In this document: positions 427 to 5,532 of the stretch, in pieces
Layout of the letters: every line of letters starts with the position of its first letter
Position numbering within the stretch: position 1 is the stretch's first letter
Source of the DNA: Candidatus Cloacimonadota bacterium
GTDB lineage: Bacteria > Cloacimonadota > Cloacimonadia > JGIOTU-2 > B8-G9
DNA length: 5,821 nt
Direction: 5' to 3'
Assembly (NCBI GenBank): GCA_003647765.1
Contig: QMNM01000111.1
Span: 1-5,821 of the forward strand
Program-made: the position numbers and the translations under genes
Notes under the pieces: generated by a model
What the model was told of the DNA's origin: nothing
Seen by the model: the letters and a program-made list of their open reading frames with translations, nothing else
Databases searched by the model: none

Positions 427-485
427 AAAAAAGGAGGAGCTTTCTCAAACATTTATATCTTAATTTTATTTATGTTTGAGAAAGC
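427..485 (-). terminator. Long perfect hairpin followed by a T run, probable terminator between the ligase fusion and nrdA
   Basis: A perfect 14-bp inverted repeat (gctttctcaaacat at 439-452 and atgtttgagaaagc at 472-485) encloses a 19-base AT-only-plus-one-G loop. Read in the gene direction it begins 9 bases after the ligase-fusion stop codon, and the stem is followed by TCCTCC and then six T (432-427). This is the position and shape of an intrinsic terminator, although the T run is offset by six bases and the loop is unusually large. On the other strand the tail is only loosely T-rich, so termination in that direction is less likely. The loop/stem edge also contains TATAAATG on the minus strand (457-450), one base off the late-promoter box. 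It could instead be an RNA-processing or stability element. Confidence 0.6.
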
Positions 486-494
486 GAAAATAAT

Positions 495-2075
495 TTATTT
501 TTGGAATTCTTCCTGAATATTAGAGAGGTAATTATAAGTTTTTGCAGTAACTAAATTTTTGAATGTCGCTAAATCACCACTTTTAATTGACATTATAGCA
601 CGAGTAGCAGATATTTCATTTTCTGCTAATTCTTTTCTAATCGTTTCGACCACTGCCAAACTGGAATGTCGTTTTAGCTGTGCCTCGTAGCTATCAATTC
701 TGTCTGAGCCTGCTAAAATAAATCGTAATCTCTTAGGAGATTTATTGATTATTGAGGTCAAATTCCCAGTAGAATGGGTTATAATAGTGATACTGTCGCC
801 AAATATAGATGTCAGAATATTAGTCTGTAATTCAAGAGATAAACTCTCCTTTACATCCTTTTTTGCCTTCACAATACATACTACAACATGAGGATATATT
901 TTCAATGCTTCCTCAATAATATTTATGTGAGCTTTTGTTGGTATTCGAAACTTTCCTACAAAAAGTGCATTTTGATTTTCAGGTAATCTATCGAGAATCA
1001 TCTGTTTTGCTGTAAGGAATATGTCATCCTTTGCTTTATGTTTTACTATACAAGGTCTGATTGTTTCAGTTGCTTTTATCTTCTCAGCAAACACTTCTGA
1101 TATGTATTCATGACCACTGATAAAGACTTTGTTATTAAGGTCTTTTAAGAGCACTTCCAAAGGTTTCTGATAATCACTATGAATGAGATATTCATGGGCT
1201 ACTTTATTGACATCAGACCAATATTGTGTCTCTACCTCTGGAGTCCCTTGGTATGGAACTTTACGAGCAAATCTAACTGATTTTGAATATTGGTCTGCTT
1301 GAACGAACTTATAGAGAGCATCCTCGGCTTCTAACACCACACCCTCAGTCTTACCACCTAAACAGCTTTCAAAGCCAAGGAACACCGCTTTAATCGTTTC
1401 GTAGTCTATAAGGCTATGTGGAGCATCAATGAACTTGTGTTTGTGAGTTTCCCATTGAGCCATTAACCCCCAACTCTTAATACCCATTTCAAAGTTTCCA
1501 AGTGTATCAATCTTTCCTTGAAATACAACTGGTGGTAAAGCGATACCAAGTAAGTTAGAATATTCAAGATTGTTTTTTGTGCTGAACTCTGTGGGATTAG
1601 TTTTAATCATACCACCAACAATCTCCGCAGTTGCAGGAGAATAGGCAATAAGGAACAAATCAAACTTCTGATGATAATCTCTTGTAGTTGTCAATTTGTT
1701 CTGAATGAACTCTATGAATACTTCTGTGTTAAGTGGGAAGTCTTTTGTTTGAATATGATTAGCTTCAAGGTGGTCGTGTATTAAAGCATACTGAGAAATA
1801 CCAACAGAATAGTTTTTAATGTCAACTCTATCAATATCATCAAACTCTTCCTTAAATAGTATTTGATTTTTGAATGCTACTACCCAATTCTTCGTGTAAT
1901 CTTTATTCCACGGTTCATTGTTTCTCCAGAGAGTAAGTTTTGTTCCATCGAACTTTTCAGTCACAATGTATTCTTTAGATAGGAATTCTTGTAGTTTTTT
2001 GTCTGTTGTAGTTGCTTTGTCAGCATTGAGGATAGATATATCCAGCATGGCAATCCTTTTTTTAGTTTTGCTCAT
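495..2075 (-). CDS. RNA-ligase-like domain fused to NMN adenylyltransferase/cytidylyltransferase-like domain
   Basis: The 526-residue protein has two recognisable enzymatic halves. Residues about 30-270 look like a covalent nucleotidyltransferase ligase: K41-F-D-G44 is motif I with the lysine that would be adenylylated, FIEF at 120-123 fits motif III, KFDLFLIAYS at 137-146 fits motif IIIa, EGVV at 244-247 is motif IV, and YKFV at 255-258 sits where motif V falls, with the second lysine of KxK replaced by Val. A helical, unassigned stretch (about 272-367) follows. Residues about 368-520 resemble the HIGH-type nucleotidyltransferase fold: GKFRIPTKAH (374-383, normally PTxGH, here Ala for Gly), GSDR (456-459) and ISATR (488-492). 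Family knowledge suggests ATP-dependent RNA sealing plus dinucleotide synthesis (for example NMN to NAD+), but neither substrate can be read here. RBS strength favours a start at 2048 (M10). The gene follows the 837-residue gene by 23 bases and precedes nrdA. Confidence 0.85.
   Translation of the reverse strand: MSKTKKRIAMLDISILNADKATTTDKKLQEFLSKEYIVTEKFDGTKLTLWRNNEPWNKDYTKNWVVAFKNQILFKEEFDDIDRVDIKNYSVGISQYALIHDHLEANHIQTKDFPLNTEVFIEFIQNKLTTTRDYHQKFDLFLIAYSPATAEIVGGMIKTNPTEFSTKNNLEYSNLLGIALPPVVFQGKIDTLGNFEMGIKSWGLMAQWETHKHKFIDAPHSLIDYETIKAVFLGFESCLGGKTEGVVLEAEDALYKFVQADQYSKSVRFARKVPYQGTPEVETQYWSDVNKVAHEYLIHSDYQKPLEVLLKDLNNKVFISGHEYISEVFAEKIKATETIRPCIVKHKAKDDIFLTAKQMILDRLPENQNALFVGKFRIPTKAHINIIEEALKIYPHVVVCIVKAKKDVKESLSLELQTNILTSIFGDSITIITHSTGNLTSIINKSPKRLRFILAGSDRIDSYEAQLKRHSSLAVVETIRKELAENEISATRAIMSIKSGDLATFKNLVTAKTYNYLSNIQEEFQK
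2046..2060 (-). promoter_or_regulatory. Ribosome-binding site favouring the later start (M10) of the ligase fusion
   Basis: On the minus strand AAAAAGGA ends 5 bases before an in-frame ATG at 2048-2046, giving the better spaced Shine-Dalgarno of the two candidates. The upstream ATG at 2075-2073 has only AAGGA at 13 bases, and that AAGGA lies inside the direct repeat at 2090-2108. Starting at 2048 would give a 517-residue protein beginning MLDISIL and would leave the whole ligase domain intact. Both starts may be used. Confidence 0.55.
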
Positions 2076-2089
2076 TATACCGAATATAT

Positions 2090-2108
2090 CCTTAAGAGTT
2101 ACTTAGAT
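2090..2108. repeat. Direct repeat, left copy, spanning the stop of the 837-residue gene
   Basis: CCTTAAGAGTTACTTAGAT occurs here and, identically, at 4662-4680. Allowing one inserted base, similarity continues for six more bases on the left (aatata). In the gene direction it reads through the last codons TCT AAG TAA and then CTCTTAAGG, so it encodes Ser-Lys-stop and the first bases after the stop. The two copies are 2572 bases apart and bracket exactly one gene. It contains the palindrome CTTAAG. It could be a recombination scar, a shared regulatory site, or both. Confidence 0.9.
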
Positions 2109-4612
2109 AAACCTAGTGTTTCAGAAATAAAATCAATATCTTCAACATTCACAGAGATTGTATTTTGTTGGTTTGTAGCCCGTCTAATGGACTTCTTGAC
2201 TGCTTTTTTATGTTTTCTTTCGTTATCAAGTATGTCAATCTCTTTCATTAGTTTTTCAGAACTATATTTTTTATATATTGGTATTACTATTATATTCATG
2301 AATAAGTGCCTGATCATACTGTAATCACGCGAATTAAGGTCATCTAGTTTGAATTGTTGCATACGAGTAGAATCAAAACCTTCTGATTCTTTGTCCATTG
2401 CTTCCAAATTTGCATCAATTAAAGCTGAATATTTTTTATAATTTTCAAGTGTCAACTCATCTCCTTTATAACCAATAATGGAGGAAATAAATGCCATATA
2501 ATTATCTCCCCTTAAGAAACTACTTCTCCCTAAAGTAGTGCTATTATTATAATTGTATATTTCAATCATTCTATATAGTTTGGTTGTATCAACCACAATA
2601 CCAAAATCATTTAATTCTCTAATAAATCCATCTAATTCTTCAATTGAATAAATTACCGAATAATTTATATTATGTTCTAACATATGTGCTTTCATATTAA
2701 GTAAAATTATAAATGGGTCACTATCATTCAACACAGCTTTCTTATCATCGGTACTCAAGGTTAATACCTTTAAATGTTTTTTAATAATTTTTAATAAACT
2801 GATAGAATGGGTTTTATTAAACTGGTTTCTATTCTTTTCCAATTGACTTACTATTTCATTTTTGGCAAAAGATATAGCCGTACTTGATAAGGTTGTTGTA
2901 TCTTTATATAATTCATCTAAGATAGCTTTGGTTGGGTTTGTTCTTCTACCATTTTTAAAAAGATTATTGGCAGTCGTAAAATACCTTCTTCCAGATAAAT
3001 TTACAAATAATGAAATAGATTTAATAAATTGCCAGTCAGAATCAGTTATAAAACTGCCGGTTGGTTTTTTTATTCTCCTACCTTTGTTATAACCATTATT
3101 TATATAATGTAATCGTGTTATATTGAATGAACTAACCTTGCTAACAACCTTATGGAGTGGGTTTTGCGAAGCATCTGTTGCAGTATAAGCGTGGATGTCA
3201 GAATATTTAAAATTTAATGCAGAACATAAAATACTTAGTTTGGTTTTTGATATATATTCCAACTGTTCATCTTTACTTTGGTTACGAATTGCGTTATTTA
3301 TAGAAACAAATGACTTACTTTCCGATGAATTTTCAAATAATCTAATATAGACTTTTGGTTGAGACACAACTATCAAATGTTGGAATAATAAGAAAGTGTC
3401 GTCAGACCAATTTCTAATATCTTTTTCAATCTTGTGTAAAAACTTTCTCAATCCAACTATATCTAATTTAGATATAAATCTTTTTAATTCCAATAGAGCA
3501 ATAGTATTATGTTGAGCATTCGATAATGCAGTGTCACATGTAAATACAGAAATATTTCGCCCTTCTTTATTTACATTAATTGTAGTCAGCTTCTTACTTC
3601 CACTAAGCAGCCTATCATGCCAACCTATATTACCCGCAGAAGCAACAGCTTCAACATCCAACAATTGTATATATGGATTGTCATAAGTAATTTTGTGAAA
3701 AGTATCAGCCATTGAATCATATAATATCTCTACTTTTTCGTCATTTAATGCTCTAACATTGTCATTGCTTGATCCACCTCTTTCTGAGGATCTAATCGGT
3801 AAATTTTCTAGTGTAAAGGCATTTTTAATAGTTTTATCGAAATTAATATGCACATCTGACATATCACCTCGTGATGACCAGTCCTTATGTTCAACATCAT
3901 TAAATTCTATAATAGCAATATTTGTTCCTGTTTCAACAGATTTTAAAATCTCAGATACTAATGAATCTGGATTAGCTATATCAGAAGGTAAAATACCATA
4001 GTTATAATTATCTTGCAATGAATATATTTGAGACTTACTTAATATAATAACTTTAGAGAATAAACCTGTTTTTTCAAATAATTTTTGATCTTCTACAAAA
4101 TTTTTACTAGCCTGCATATAAGTATCATATCCAGATTTTGTAGAAAAGAAAGAGTCTGGATGGTAAAGGCATACTTGGATATATACGGTATCAGCTAAAG
4201 ACTCATCTACTGCATCGGAGGTAAATGTCAGCATATAATTTAATGCCTGTGCCATTTTTTTATTAAACTGTGTTATTAAATTTCTCTCAGTTGTTGAAGG
4301 TACTATACCATTTTCAATAATAACACCTATCTCTTTATTAGCATTTTTGATTGCTACATCAAGAAACCCTTTTACAGTATCTGTGTTTTTTAAATATTTA
4401 GAATCATAATATAATTCTGTTTTAATACCAGTTGTATTCTGCTCAATCAATAAACGACCGAAGGTTAAACTATAGCATAGTAATTCTCTTTTTTGAGCAG
4501 TATATGCTATATACTCAAATGAATCATCGTTCATGACTCTAATACCACCATTATTATCAACTACTTTATAAAGTTTAGCTAGTTCAGCTACAAATTTATT
4601 CTCTTTTGTCAT
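2099..4612 (-). CDS. Large protein of unknown function (837 aa), AT-rich, repeat-bounded
   Basis: I do not recognise this protein. The start is well supported: AAAGGAG ends 5 bases before the ATG at 4612. The sequence has no signal peptide and no convincing membrane segment, so it is probably soluble. Residues about 1-250 alternate hydrophobic strands and helices (for example IGVIIENGIV near 95-104 and NIAIIEFNDVEH near 232-243), suggesting an alpha/beta domain. A Ser/Gly/Asn-rich stretch (SSERGGSSNDN, about 275-285) looks like a linker. The remainder is mainly helical and Asn/Lys/Ile-rich, ending in a basic helix (ERKHKKAVKKSIRR, about 796-809) and an acidic tail. In counted 60-base samples GC was 18-28 percent, against 32-50 percent in flanking genes. 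Identical 19-base repeats lie at both gene boundaries, suggesting a cassette. A virion, injected or host-takeover protein is possible, but nothing in the sequence decides. Confidence 0.82.
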   Translation of the reverse strand: MTKENKFVAELAKLYKVVDNNGGIRVMNDDSFEYIAYTAQKRELLCYSLTFGRLLIEQNTTGIKTELYYDSKYLKNTDTVKGFLDVAIKNANKEIGVIIENGIVPSTTERNLITQFNKKMAQALNYMLTFTSDAVDESLADTVYIQVCLYHPDSFFSTKSGYDTYMQASKNFVEDQKLFEKTGLFSKVIILSKSQIYSLQDNYNYGILPSDIANPDSLVSEILKSVETGTNIAIIEFNDVEHKDWSSRGDMSDVHINFDKTIKNAFTLENLPIRSSERGGSSNDNVRALNDEKVEILYDSMADTFHKITYDNPYIQLLDVEAVASAGNIGWHDRLLSGSKKLTTINVNKEGRNISVFTCDTALSNAQHNTIALLELKRFISKLDIVGLRKFLHKIEKDIRNWSDDTFLLFQHLIVVSQPKVYIRLFENSSESKSFVSINNAIRNQSKDEQLEYISKTKLSILCSALNFKYSDIHAYTATDASQNPLHKVVSKVSSFNITRLHYINNGYNKGRRIKKPTGSFITDSDWQFIKSISLFVNLSGRRYFTTANNLFKNGRRTNPTKAILDELYKDTTTLSSTAISFAKNEIVSQLEKNRNQFNKTHSISLLKIIKKHLKVLTLSTDDKKAVLNDSDPFIILLNMKAHMLEHNINYSVIYSIEELDGFIRELNDFGIVVDTTKLYRMIEIYNYNNSTTLGRSSFLRGDNYMAFISSIIGYKGDELTLENYKKYSALIDANLEAMDKESEGFDSTRMQQFKLDDLNSRDYSMIRHLFMNIIVIPIYKKYSSEKLMKEIDILDNERKHKKAVKKSIRRATNQQNTISVNVEDIDFISETLGLSK

Positions 4613-4661
4613 ATAAACTCCTTTTAATAGTAGAAGTCTATCATAAAGGATATTAAATATA

Positions 4662-4680
4662 CCTTAAGAGTTACTTAGAT
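4662..4680. repeat. Direct repeat, right copy, spanning the stop of the 58-residue gene
   Basis: This is the second exact copy of the 19-base element at 2090-2108. It again covers the codons TCT AAG TAA plus CTCTTAAGG, this time at the end of the small basic gene, 50 bases before the start codon of the 837-residue gene. The stop codon sits at the same offset in both copies (4671 against 2099). Confidence 0.9.
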
Positions 4681-4847
4681 TTATTCACTCTAATGTAATC
4701 TTTAACATTTTTTTTCTTTTTGTGCTTCTTTAATTTTCTTGGAATCATAATAGGAAGTTTTGAATCTTCACCAGTATGACTATCTTTAACACCAGCCGGT
4801 GTTTCATTCCATAATAAAGCATTATTTAAGTCACCAAGAGTAAGCAT
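4671..4847 (-). CDS. Small basic protein (58 aa), unknown, coupled to the endolysin gene
   Basis: An ATG at 4847-4845 immediately follows the endolysin TAA (TAAATG) and opens a 58-codon frame ending at 4671. The product starts MLTLGDLNNALLWNETPAG and ends in a strongly basic tail with KLKKHKKKKNVKDY followed by IRVNKSK. No good Shine-Dalgarno precedes it (only AAGAG), so translation probably depends on ribosomes finishing the endolysin gene. The moderately polar N-terminal half and Lys-rich tail have no membrane segment, so it is not an obvious holin. The tail could bind nucleic acid or another polyanion. It fills the whole gap between the endolysin and the upstream region of the 837-residue gene, which argues that it is real; the alternative is an untranslated spacer. 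I do not recognise a family. Confidence 0.68.
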   Translation of the reverse strand: MLTLGDLNNALLWNETPAGVKDSHTGEDSKLPIMIPRKLKKHKKKKNVKDYIRVNKSK

Positions 4848-5504
4848 TTATATTGCTCTTAGTTCAAAGTGTGGTAAATCGTCAAAGTTCTGGTCAGTGT
4901 AAATATCATCTTGATCCCAATCTCCACCCCATCTTACTTTATGAGAGATTTTAACTTCTTCTAATAACTGTCTGGCTGCCATTTTAACAAGTCCTGCTAA
5001 GTAGTAAAATCTTCTTAAATCTTTTTGAGCACCACTAAAAGCATTAGAACCTTTTTTGTATGGCATAATATCAACAGCATAACTTAATCCATCACCGTGA
5101 TCCTGATGCTTCGATAATTTCTTAACACCGTCTAACTTACTTCTACCTGTTTCAAAGTATTCTAATTGCTTCTCAGCAGTTCTTAGTCCTTCAAGCACCG
5201 ATATATCGTATATCTTAATAACTTCTTCCATTATCTTAATCATATCTGGGTGACATGTATCCAATCTTGCTCTACTTCTATTTCCAAATCTATACATTGC
5301 TTTGATCTCCTTTTTATTAGTAGTTTCTGTAACCTTGAATGGTTCAACTACTTTATCTTCTAATATAGCAACTACTTTACTCATACCACTAATAGTATGT
5401 TGAGAGTTACTAACCTCACTGTCTATATTTTTATTTATATTTTTATTTCCAGTCTTTAATATTTTAGTCATAAAACTTGAAAAAAATGCTATAATTTTGT
5501 CCAT
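4848..5504 (-). CDS. M15-family peptidoglycan peptidase (endolysin or virion peptidase) with N-terminal extension
   Basis: Residues about 70-218 are a typical M15C L-alanyl-D-glutamate/D-Ala-D-Ala peptidase domain that cleaves the peptide part of peptidoglycan. The motifs are GLRTAEKQ (107-113), SKHQDHGDGLSYAVD (131-145) and DDLPHFEL (208-215). By comparison with T5 endolysin, H133, D145 and H212 would bind zinc and D209 would be catalytic; all are present, so it should be active. The 69 residues before the domain are unusual: family members normally start near the equivalent of M70. The extension has a short amphipathic stretch (IIAFFSSFMTKIL, 4-16, too short for a clear membrane span) and an NKNI duplication. 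The full-length start has AAAAGGAG 5 bases upstream and an exact late promoter 20 bases upstream. A second strong RBS precedes M70. Late lysis or cell-wall penetration are both plausible roles. Confidence 0.9.
   Translation of the reverse strand: MDKIIAFFSSFMTKILKTGNKNINKNIDSEVSNSQHTISGMSKVVAILEDKVVEPFKVTETTNKKEIKAMYRFGNRSRARLDTCHPDMIKIMEEVIKIYDISVLEGLRTAEKQLEYFETGRSKLDGVKKLSKHQDHGDGLSYAVDIMPYKKGSNAFSGAQKDLRRFYYLAGLVKMAARQLLEEVKISHKVRWGGDWDQDDIYTDQNFDDLPHFELRAI
5295..5315 (-). promoter_or_regulatory. Internal ribosome-binding site and in-frame ATG inside the endolysin gene
   Basis: On the minus strand AAAAAGGAG is followed 8 bases later by the in-frame ATG of codon 70 (5297-5295). This is a near-ideal Shine-Dalgarno, and the ATG falls exactly where ordinary M15C endolysins begin (YRFGNRSRARLD follows). 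A separate 149-residue peptidase could be made from here. The same bases encode Lys-Lys-Glu-Ile, so a chance match is possible. Confidence 0.55.
5424..5447. repeat. Tandem 12-base duplication in the endolysin N-terminal extension
   Basis: Two perfect adjacent copies of tatatttttatt (minus strand AATAAAAATATA) encode Asn-Lys-Asn-Ile twice at residues 20-27. The unit is a multiple of three, so the frame is kept. The junction creates an exact TATAAATA on the minus strand at 5439-5432. Confidence 0.85.
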
Positions 5505-5524: not shown

Positions 5525-5532
5525 TATTTATA
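5525..5532 (-). promoter_or_regulatory. T4-type late promoter (TATAAATA) for the endolysin gene
   Basis: The minus strand reads TATAAATA, the exact T4 late-promoter consensus used with the phage sigma factor gp55 and co-activators. It ends 20 bases before the endolysin ATG, with the AAAAGGAG ribosome-binding site between, so the transcript would have a very short leader, as is usual for T4 late genes. The octamer also occurs by chance in AT-rich DNA, but its placement in the only sizeable intergenic gap here supports function. It would drive the endolysin, the small basic gene and perhaps the 837-residue gene. Confidence 0.72.

Follow-up and report, generated by a model that had tools for sequence, protein, structure and literature searches.

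The window, i.e. the whole stretch of DNA that was analysed (5,821 nucleotides), is a complete 5.8-kb contig (C137) of a bin that comprises 1.97 Mb in 360 contigs. Every gene lies on the minus strand, and in that orientation the order is a contig-end ORF, an M15-type endolysin, a 58-aa ORF, an 837-aa ORF, an RNA ligase-like/nucleotidyltransferase fusion (hereafter the ligase) and, last, the start of the large subunit of a ribonucleotide reductase, with an ATP-cone. The 837-aa gene stands between two exact copies of a 19-base repeat. The features, all on the minus strand, are as follows:

439-485, minus strand: likely intrinsic terminator after the ligase (-18.4 kcal/mol, z -6.5), a hairpin and then a U-rich tail
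495-2048, minus strand: RNA ligase-like/nucleotidyltransferase fusion, likely start MLDIS (phrog_27149, 9e-75; PF01467; weak PF09414)
2074-2079, minus strand: TATAAT, -10 hexamer of the predicted ligase promoter, 11 nt after TTAAG and 25 nt from the ATG at 2048
2090-2108, minus strand: repeat copy 1, with the boxes CTAAG (2106-2102) and TTAAGG (2095-2090), over the stop of the 837-aa gene; best matrix match
2099-4612, minus strand: 837-aa orphan gene, relatives absent from every library and collection searched
4635-4656, minus strand: best-scoring -27 box and -10 of copy 2 (TTAAT-N11-TAGACT), 22 nt before the start of the 837-aa gene, with a score (10.6 bits) within the null range
4662-4680, minus strand: repeat copy 2, with the two identical boxes, over the stop of the 58-aa gene and upstream of the 837-aa gene
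4671-4847, minus strand: 58-aa basic ORF, no family match
4848-5504, minus strand: M15-type endolysin (phrog_465, 8e-37)
5525-5532, minus strand: T4-type late promoter octamer TATAAATA upstream of the endolysin, a consensus match only

The closest relative of the window is a viral contig of 224 kb, L003, the endolysin and the ligase of which are 77% and 52% identical to those of the window. From this nearest relative, and because relatives of the ligase fusion were found in T4-like phages of Campylobacter and Vibrio, we identify the window as a fragment of a T4-like phage. The genome of this phage is probably scattered through the bin, since several small contigs (C20, C85, C104, C141, C180, C215, C243, C302 and C322) encode homologues of L003 proteins. 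The capsid marker of T4-like phages, PF07068, has no match in the bin, yet these other contigs do encode such homologues. Judging from the promoter form described below and from the phage relatives, the host would be an epsilonproteobacterium. On another contig of the bin (C1; L080 5292-7673), we noticed a 794-aa ORF that fuses a family-4 uracil-DNA glycosylase-like domain and a PolA-like polymerase domain.

A sequence-only reading of this DNA had placed one and the same 19-mer at both boundaries of the 837-aa gene, and CCTTAAGAGTTACTTAGAT does occur exactly at 2090-2108 and 4662-4680, with 2572 bases from start to start. Its view that a chance match of this length is very unlikely was borne out as well, in that none of 1000 third-order Markov sequences of equal length contained an exact repeat of at least 19 bases. 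On the coding (minus) strand the repeat reads ATCTAAGTAACTCTTAAGG, of the form CTAAG-N6-TTAAGG, and the similarity of the two copies runs on past a one-base indel (GG[A]TATATT) to cover 25 of 26 positions. No further copy was found in the window with up to three mismatches, or anywhere in the 1.97-Mb bin; the 19-mer was also sought in viral_contigs, at the L003 and L009 loci, and was absent. The copies have, as had been noticed, an equal offset over the stop codon of each upstream frame, and both span a Ser-Lys-stop, that of the 58-aa ORF and that of the 837-aa ORF. A paralogy of the 3' ends of these two genes beyond the repeat was rejected, codon-shuffled controls reaching the score in 284 of 1000 cases.

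The repeat coincides with the boxes of a promoter class that can be defined independently in L003. When this contig was searched for TTAAG followed at varied distance by TATAAT, 39 matches were found, the expected number over all spacings tried being 6 to 9, and 36 of them had one identical spacing (N11). Most of these TTAAG-N11-TATAAT sites directly precede start codons, at a median of 28 nt, and their alignment revealed a second TTAA box exactly 11 nt further upstream, so that the class consensus of the 36 promoters is TTAA-N7-TTAAG-N11-TATAAT. The stop codon of the upstream gene is overlapped by 19 of the 36, and the offset of the window repeats over stop codons therefore appears ordinary for promoters of this class.

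A scanning matrix was built from the 36 L003 sites alone, with no window sequence in the training set. Its top match in the window is copy 1 with TATAAT at 2079-2074, on the coding strand, with 22.2 bits, knowing that the 95% point of the null is 11.4 bits and that most training sites score 18-30 bits. This score is strong but not absolute, since one of 200 random windows scored as high as 21.6 bits; the position, the strand, the distance to the start codon and the coincidence with the repeat add support. First, the TTAAG of copy 1 lies exactly 11 nt before TATAAT (2095-2074), as in the class. Second, its upstream box (CTAAG, 2106-2102) stands 11 nt further upstream, with one mismatch to the TTAA-box form, and CTAAG also occurs in promoters of phage NCTC12673. 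Third, the distance of 25 nt from the -10 to the ATG at 2048, on the same strand, falls inside the class range of about 17-33 nt. With a matrix derived from phage CP21, copy 1 (7.1) was again the top match in the window but ranked under nearly all CP21 sites. In addition, a standard sigma70 scan (TTGACA/TATAAT) of the window gave no excess, and a T4 late promoter at the repeats was rejected, the octamer given above being absent there.

The predicted promoter bears on the ligase gene, the annotated start of which (ATG at 2075) falls inside the -10 hexamer. The true start is likely the ATG at 2048 (MLDIS...), because AAAAGGA precedes it, its 25-nt distance fits the L003 median, and homologues start nearby.

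At copy 2, no TATAAT stands at the proper distance from the boxes. Its best match, the second-best of the L003 matrix in the window, is shifted by one 11-nt step and has TAGACT as the -10, and an alternative -10, TATCCT at 4647-4652, has a spacer one base short. The promoter activity of copy 2 is uncertain, given this missing TATAAT and its null-range score. If the sigma70-type promoter is active, the 837-aa gene would be expressed with the sigma70-driven genes, and not with the late structural ones.

The same promoter class was found in cultured phages. CP21 (Firehammervirus) and NCTC12673 (Fletchervirus), both T4-like phages of Campylobacter, carry TTAA-N7-TTAAG-N11-TATAAT on the coding strand directly before genes, like copy 1 of the window, whereas copy 2 lacks a good -10. 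There are 40 sites of the class in CP21, two of which share 16 of the 19 bases of the window repeat, although the window spacer between the -27 box and the -10 is less T-rich than in CP21. The sites of NCTC12673 include CTAAGATAACCTTAAGGTTAAATGTTGTATAAT, of the form CTAAG...CTTAAGG...TATAAT, and a promoter annotated by the depositors of that record (26628-26659) has this form. The bin of the window itself holds 31 sites of the class, versus 6 for the reversed pattern, and many of them are on contigs with L003 homologues.

This promoter form recalls the sigma70 promoters of epsilonproteobacteria. Those of C. jejuni have no strict -35 but periodic T signals at -7, -17, -27 and -38 (PMC3847290), and a -35 of the form TTTAAGTnTT has been described (PMC3824568). 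T signals every 10-11 bases, TTTAAGTnTT and TATAAT are common to the phage class and to these bacterial promoters (Petersen 2003 and Wosten 1998, cited in PMC3847290 and PMC3824568), whereas the phage boxes are sharper and have a fixed G (TTAAG). In NCTC12673, RNA sequencing traced most of the transcription to two A/T-rich motifs (PMC6024767), which may or may not be those of the TTAAG-N11-TATAAT class, the text of that paper not giving their letters.

From these lines of evidence, we consider it probable that the repeat is the upstream half of a phage promoter, the copies of which most likely arose by duplication. In this view, T4-like phages of epsilonproteobacteria use a sigma70-type promoter, and the 19-mer would supply its -38 and -27 boxes (CTAAG-N6-TTAAGG). 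The ligase/nucleotidyltransferase gene would be transcribed from copy 1, with the TATAAT at 2079-2074 as the -10, its leader reaching to the ATG at 2048 and its terminator lying at 485-439; copy 2, with its weaker -10, would stand in front of the 837-aa gene. Each putative promoter would overlap the stop codon of the preceding gene because the genes are packed end to end.

The gene between the two copies remains an orphan. No relative of the 837-aa protein was found in Pfam, PHROGs, NCBIfam, PADLOC or PDB, in phage and plasmid records, in genomes of its phylum, or in IMG/VR and GTDB contigs, the latter two being searched with short peptide patterns, a method limited to close relatives. A weak match to a portal protein (E 0.4) was taken as noise, and an AlphaFold2 model made without an alignment was useless (pLDDT 34).

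The orphan status of this gene invites another reading, in which the repeat has no function and is the scar of a gain of the 837-aa gene, by recombination or template switching at 19 bases of homology. Consistent with such a scar, L003 carries the endolysin, a 98-aa gene and the ligase at this locus, and has no 837-aa gene there or in its whole record, and the identity of the two copies exceeds the promoter consensus (see below). We nevertheless regard a functionless scar as unlikely, first because the repeat coincides with the boxes of an independently defined class, correctly spaced relative to both a -10 and a start codon, and second because of the base composition. The GC content of whole genes is 28.8% for both the 837-aa and the 58-aa genes, 31.7% for the endolysin and 34.7% for the ligase, and that of third positions is 0.200, 0.203, 0.224 and 0.290 in the same order. 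At third positions, the contrast between the 837-aa gene and the ligase is significant (p = 2e-4), whereas that between the 837-aa gene and the endolysin is not (p = 0.51). The low-GC contrast with the flanks that had been proposed therefore holds versus the ligase only, and not versus the endolysin or the 58-aa gene; the 60-base samples from which it was read overstated it relative to the whole-gene values, and a gene cassette of foreign base composition finds no support.

L003 appears too distant to offer a clean empty site, as it also differs from the window by the 98-aa gene and by an extension of the ligase. This N-terminal extension of about 195 residues, absent from the window protein, is encoded at L003 9413-10000. 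A close relative with an empty site, i.e. a single repeat copy, was sought and not found, so that the gain of the 837-aa gene by recombination, plausible and with parallels in related phages, is still something that we infer. Of the two possibilities raised in the sequence-only reading, such a gain and a repeated regulatory element serving gene swapping, it is the regulatory element that fits best, in view of the promoter class in relatives and of the genes that it brackets there.

The likeness of the copies could also be pure convergence, in which two independent promoters of the same class became identical over 19 bases by chance. The boxes are conserved, and in CP21 runs of at least 19 are common to 3 of 33 neighbouring promoter pairs, as convergence might allow. 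The position frequencies of CP21, however, put the chance that these 19 positions are identical at about 1e-4. Moreover, among 29 promoters of the class in the bin, copy 1 itself apart, the best match to the 19-mer is 13/19, and the longest in-register run common to any pair is 14 (0 of 406 pairs above 14). These counts make convergence quite improbable, and the likeness of the copies probably exceeds what the promoter consensus demands. The 3 of 33 CP21 pairs also indicate a tendency of neighbouring promoters to be copies of one another.

As to the duplicated promoter half that we favour, we take the identity beyond consensus, other bin promoters reaching at best 13/19, as a sign of local duplication, for which CP21_165 and Hef53 offer parallels. 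One copy would most likely derive from the other, the copies being more alike than the consensus demands, when a promoter-plus-gene unit was gained or a neighbour was lost, and this gain or loss would have occurred by recombination at the promoter sequence.

Related phages offer several precedents for such bracketing. In NCTC12673, the gene of the free-standing homing endonuclease Hef53 has one promoter at its start and a nearly identical one (about 30/33) overlapping its stop, and in CP21 an exact promoter repeat of 33 nt brackets the homing endonuclease genes CP21_071-073. In both cases a gene or small module is bracketed by promoters at the start and over the stop, as in the window, whereas the 837-aa protein has no similarity to homing endonucleases. 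CP21_165 similarly sits as a single gene between near-identical promoters, the promoter-plus-gene unit (CP21_165/166) being present twice in CP21, and relatives carry one unit fewer: four of them have one promoter fewer between the portal and the DNA ligase, with no separate copy of the CP21_165-type unit. CP21_165 and CP21_166 are paralogues, indicating a tandem duplication with no foreign gene, whereas the neighbouring genes of the window are unrelated. At CP21_071-073, the homology of CP21 to the Campylobacter phages CP220, F379 and CJLB-12 stops at the promoter box, at 43260, a place of exchange for homing endonuclease genes. It is known that T4 amplifies and deletes genes via recombination between short flanking homologies (PMC9391042), and it is already accepted that phages exchange modules at linker sequences (PMC4546147).

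The homing endonuclease genes bracketed in relatives could also suggest that a transposon-like or homing element carries the 837-aa gene and that the repeat is its target-site duplication. We consider this very improbable, as the boundaries lack terminal inverted repeats, domain searches detected no transposase, nuclease or recombinase, and comparison with two homing endonuclease profiles (Hef and CP21/CP220) gave a probability of 0.1%, i.e. no similarity. On these grounds a free-standing homing endonuclease (no nuclease domain, same profile result) and a transposon with target-site duplication (no inverted arms, no transposase match) were rejected, as was an integron-type gene cassette, the repeats having no inverted arms (attC) and the window no integrase.

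Since related phages show the same arrangement, the layout is mostly ordinary, and it suggests a way in which single genes may enter or leave these phages at their promoters. The pair of repeats, puzzling at first, thereby becomes readable regulation, and the start codon of the ligase is corrected. The promoter form with two TTAA(G) boxes, defined by sequence alone, is common to cultured Campylobacter phages and to uncultured relatives, and should aid their annotation. Several such phages have single genes set between near-identical promoters, and gene exchange based on promoters thereby becomes an idea open to test. A bolder proposal, which we think is probably wrong, is that the 837-aa orphan represents an undescribed type of mobile phage gene, which would insert at sigma70-type promoters and duplicate them, thereby keeping the displaced gene expressed; if this were true, promoter-box homology would be a general junction for the exchange of single genes in T4-like phages of epsilonproteobacteria.

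Finally, many genes at about 190-222 kb of L003 (G059) are preceded by members of a second promoter family, of early type, which show up to about 66 nt of exact identity, leader and ribosome site included.
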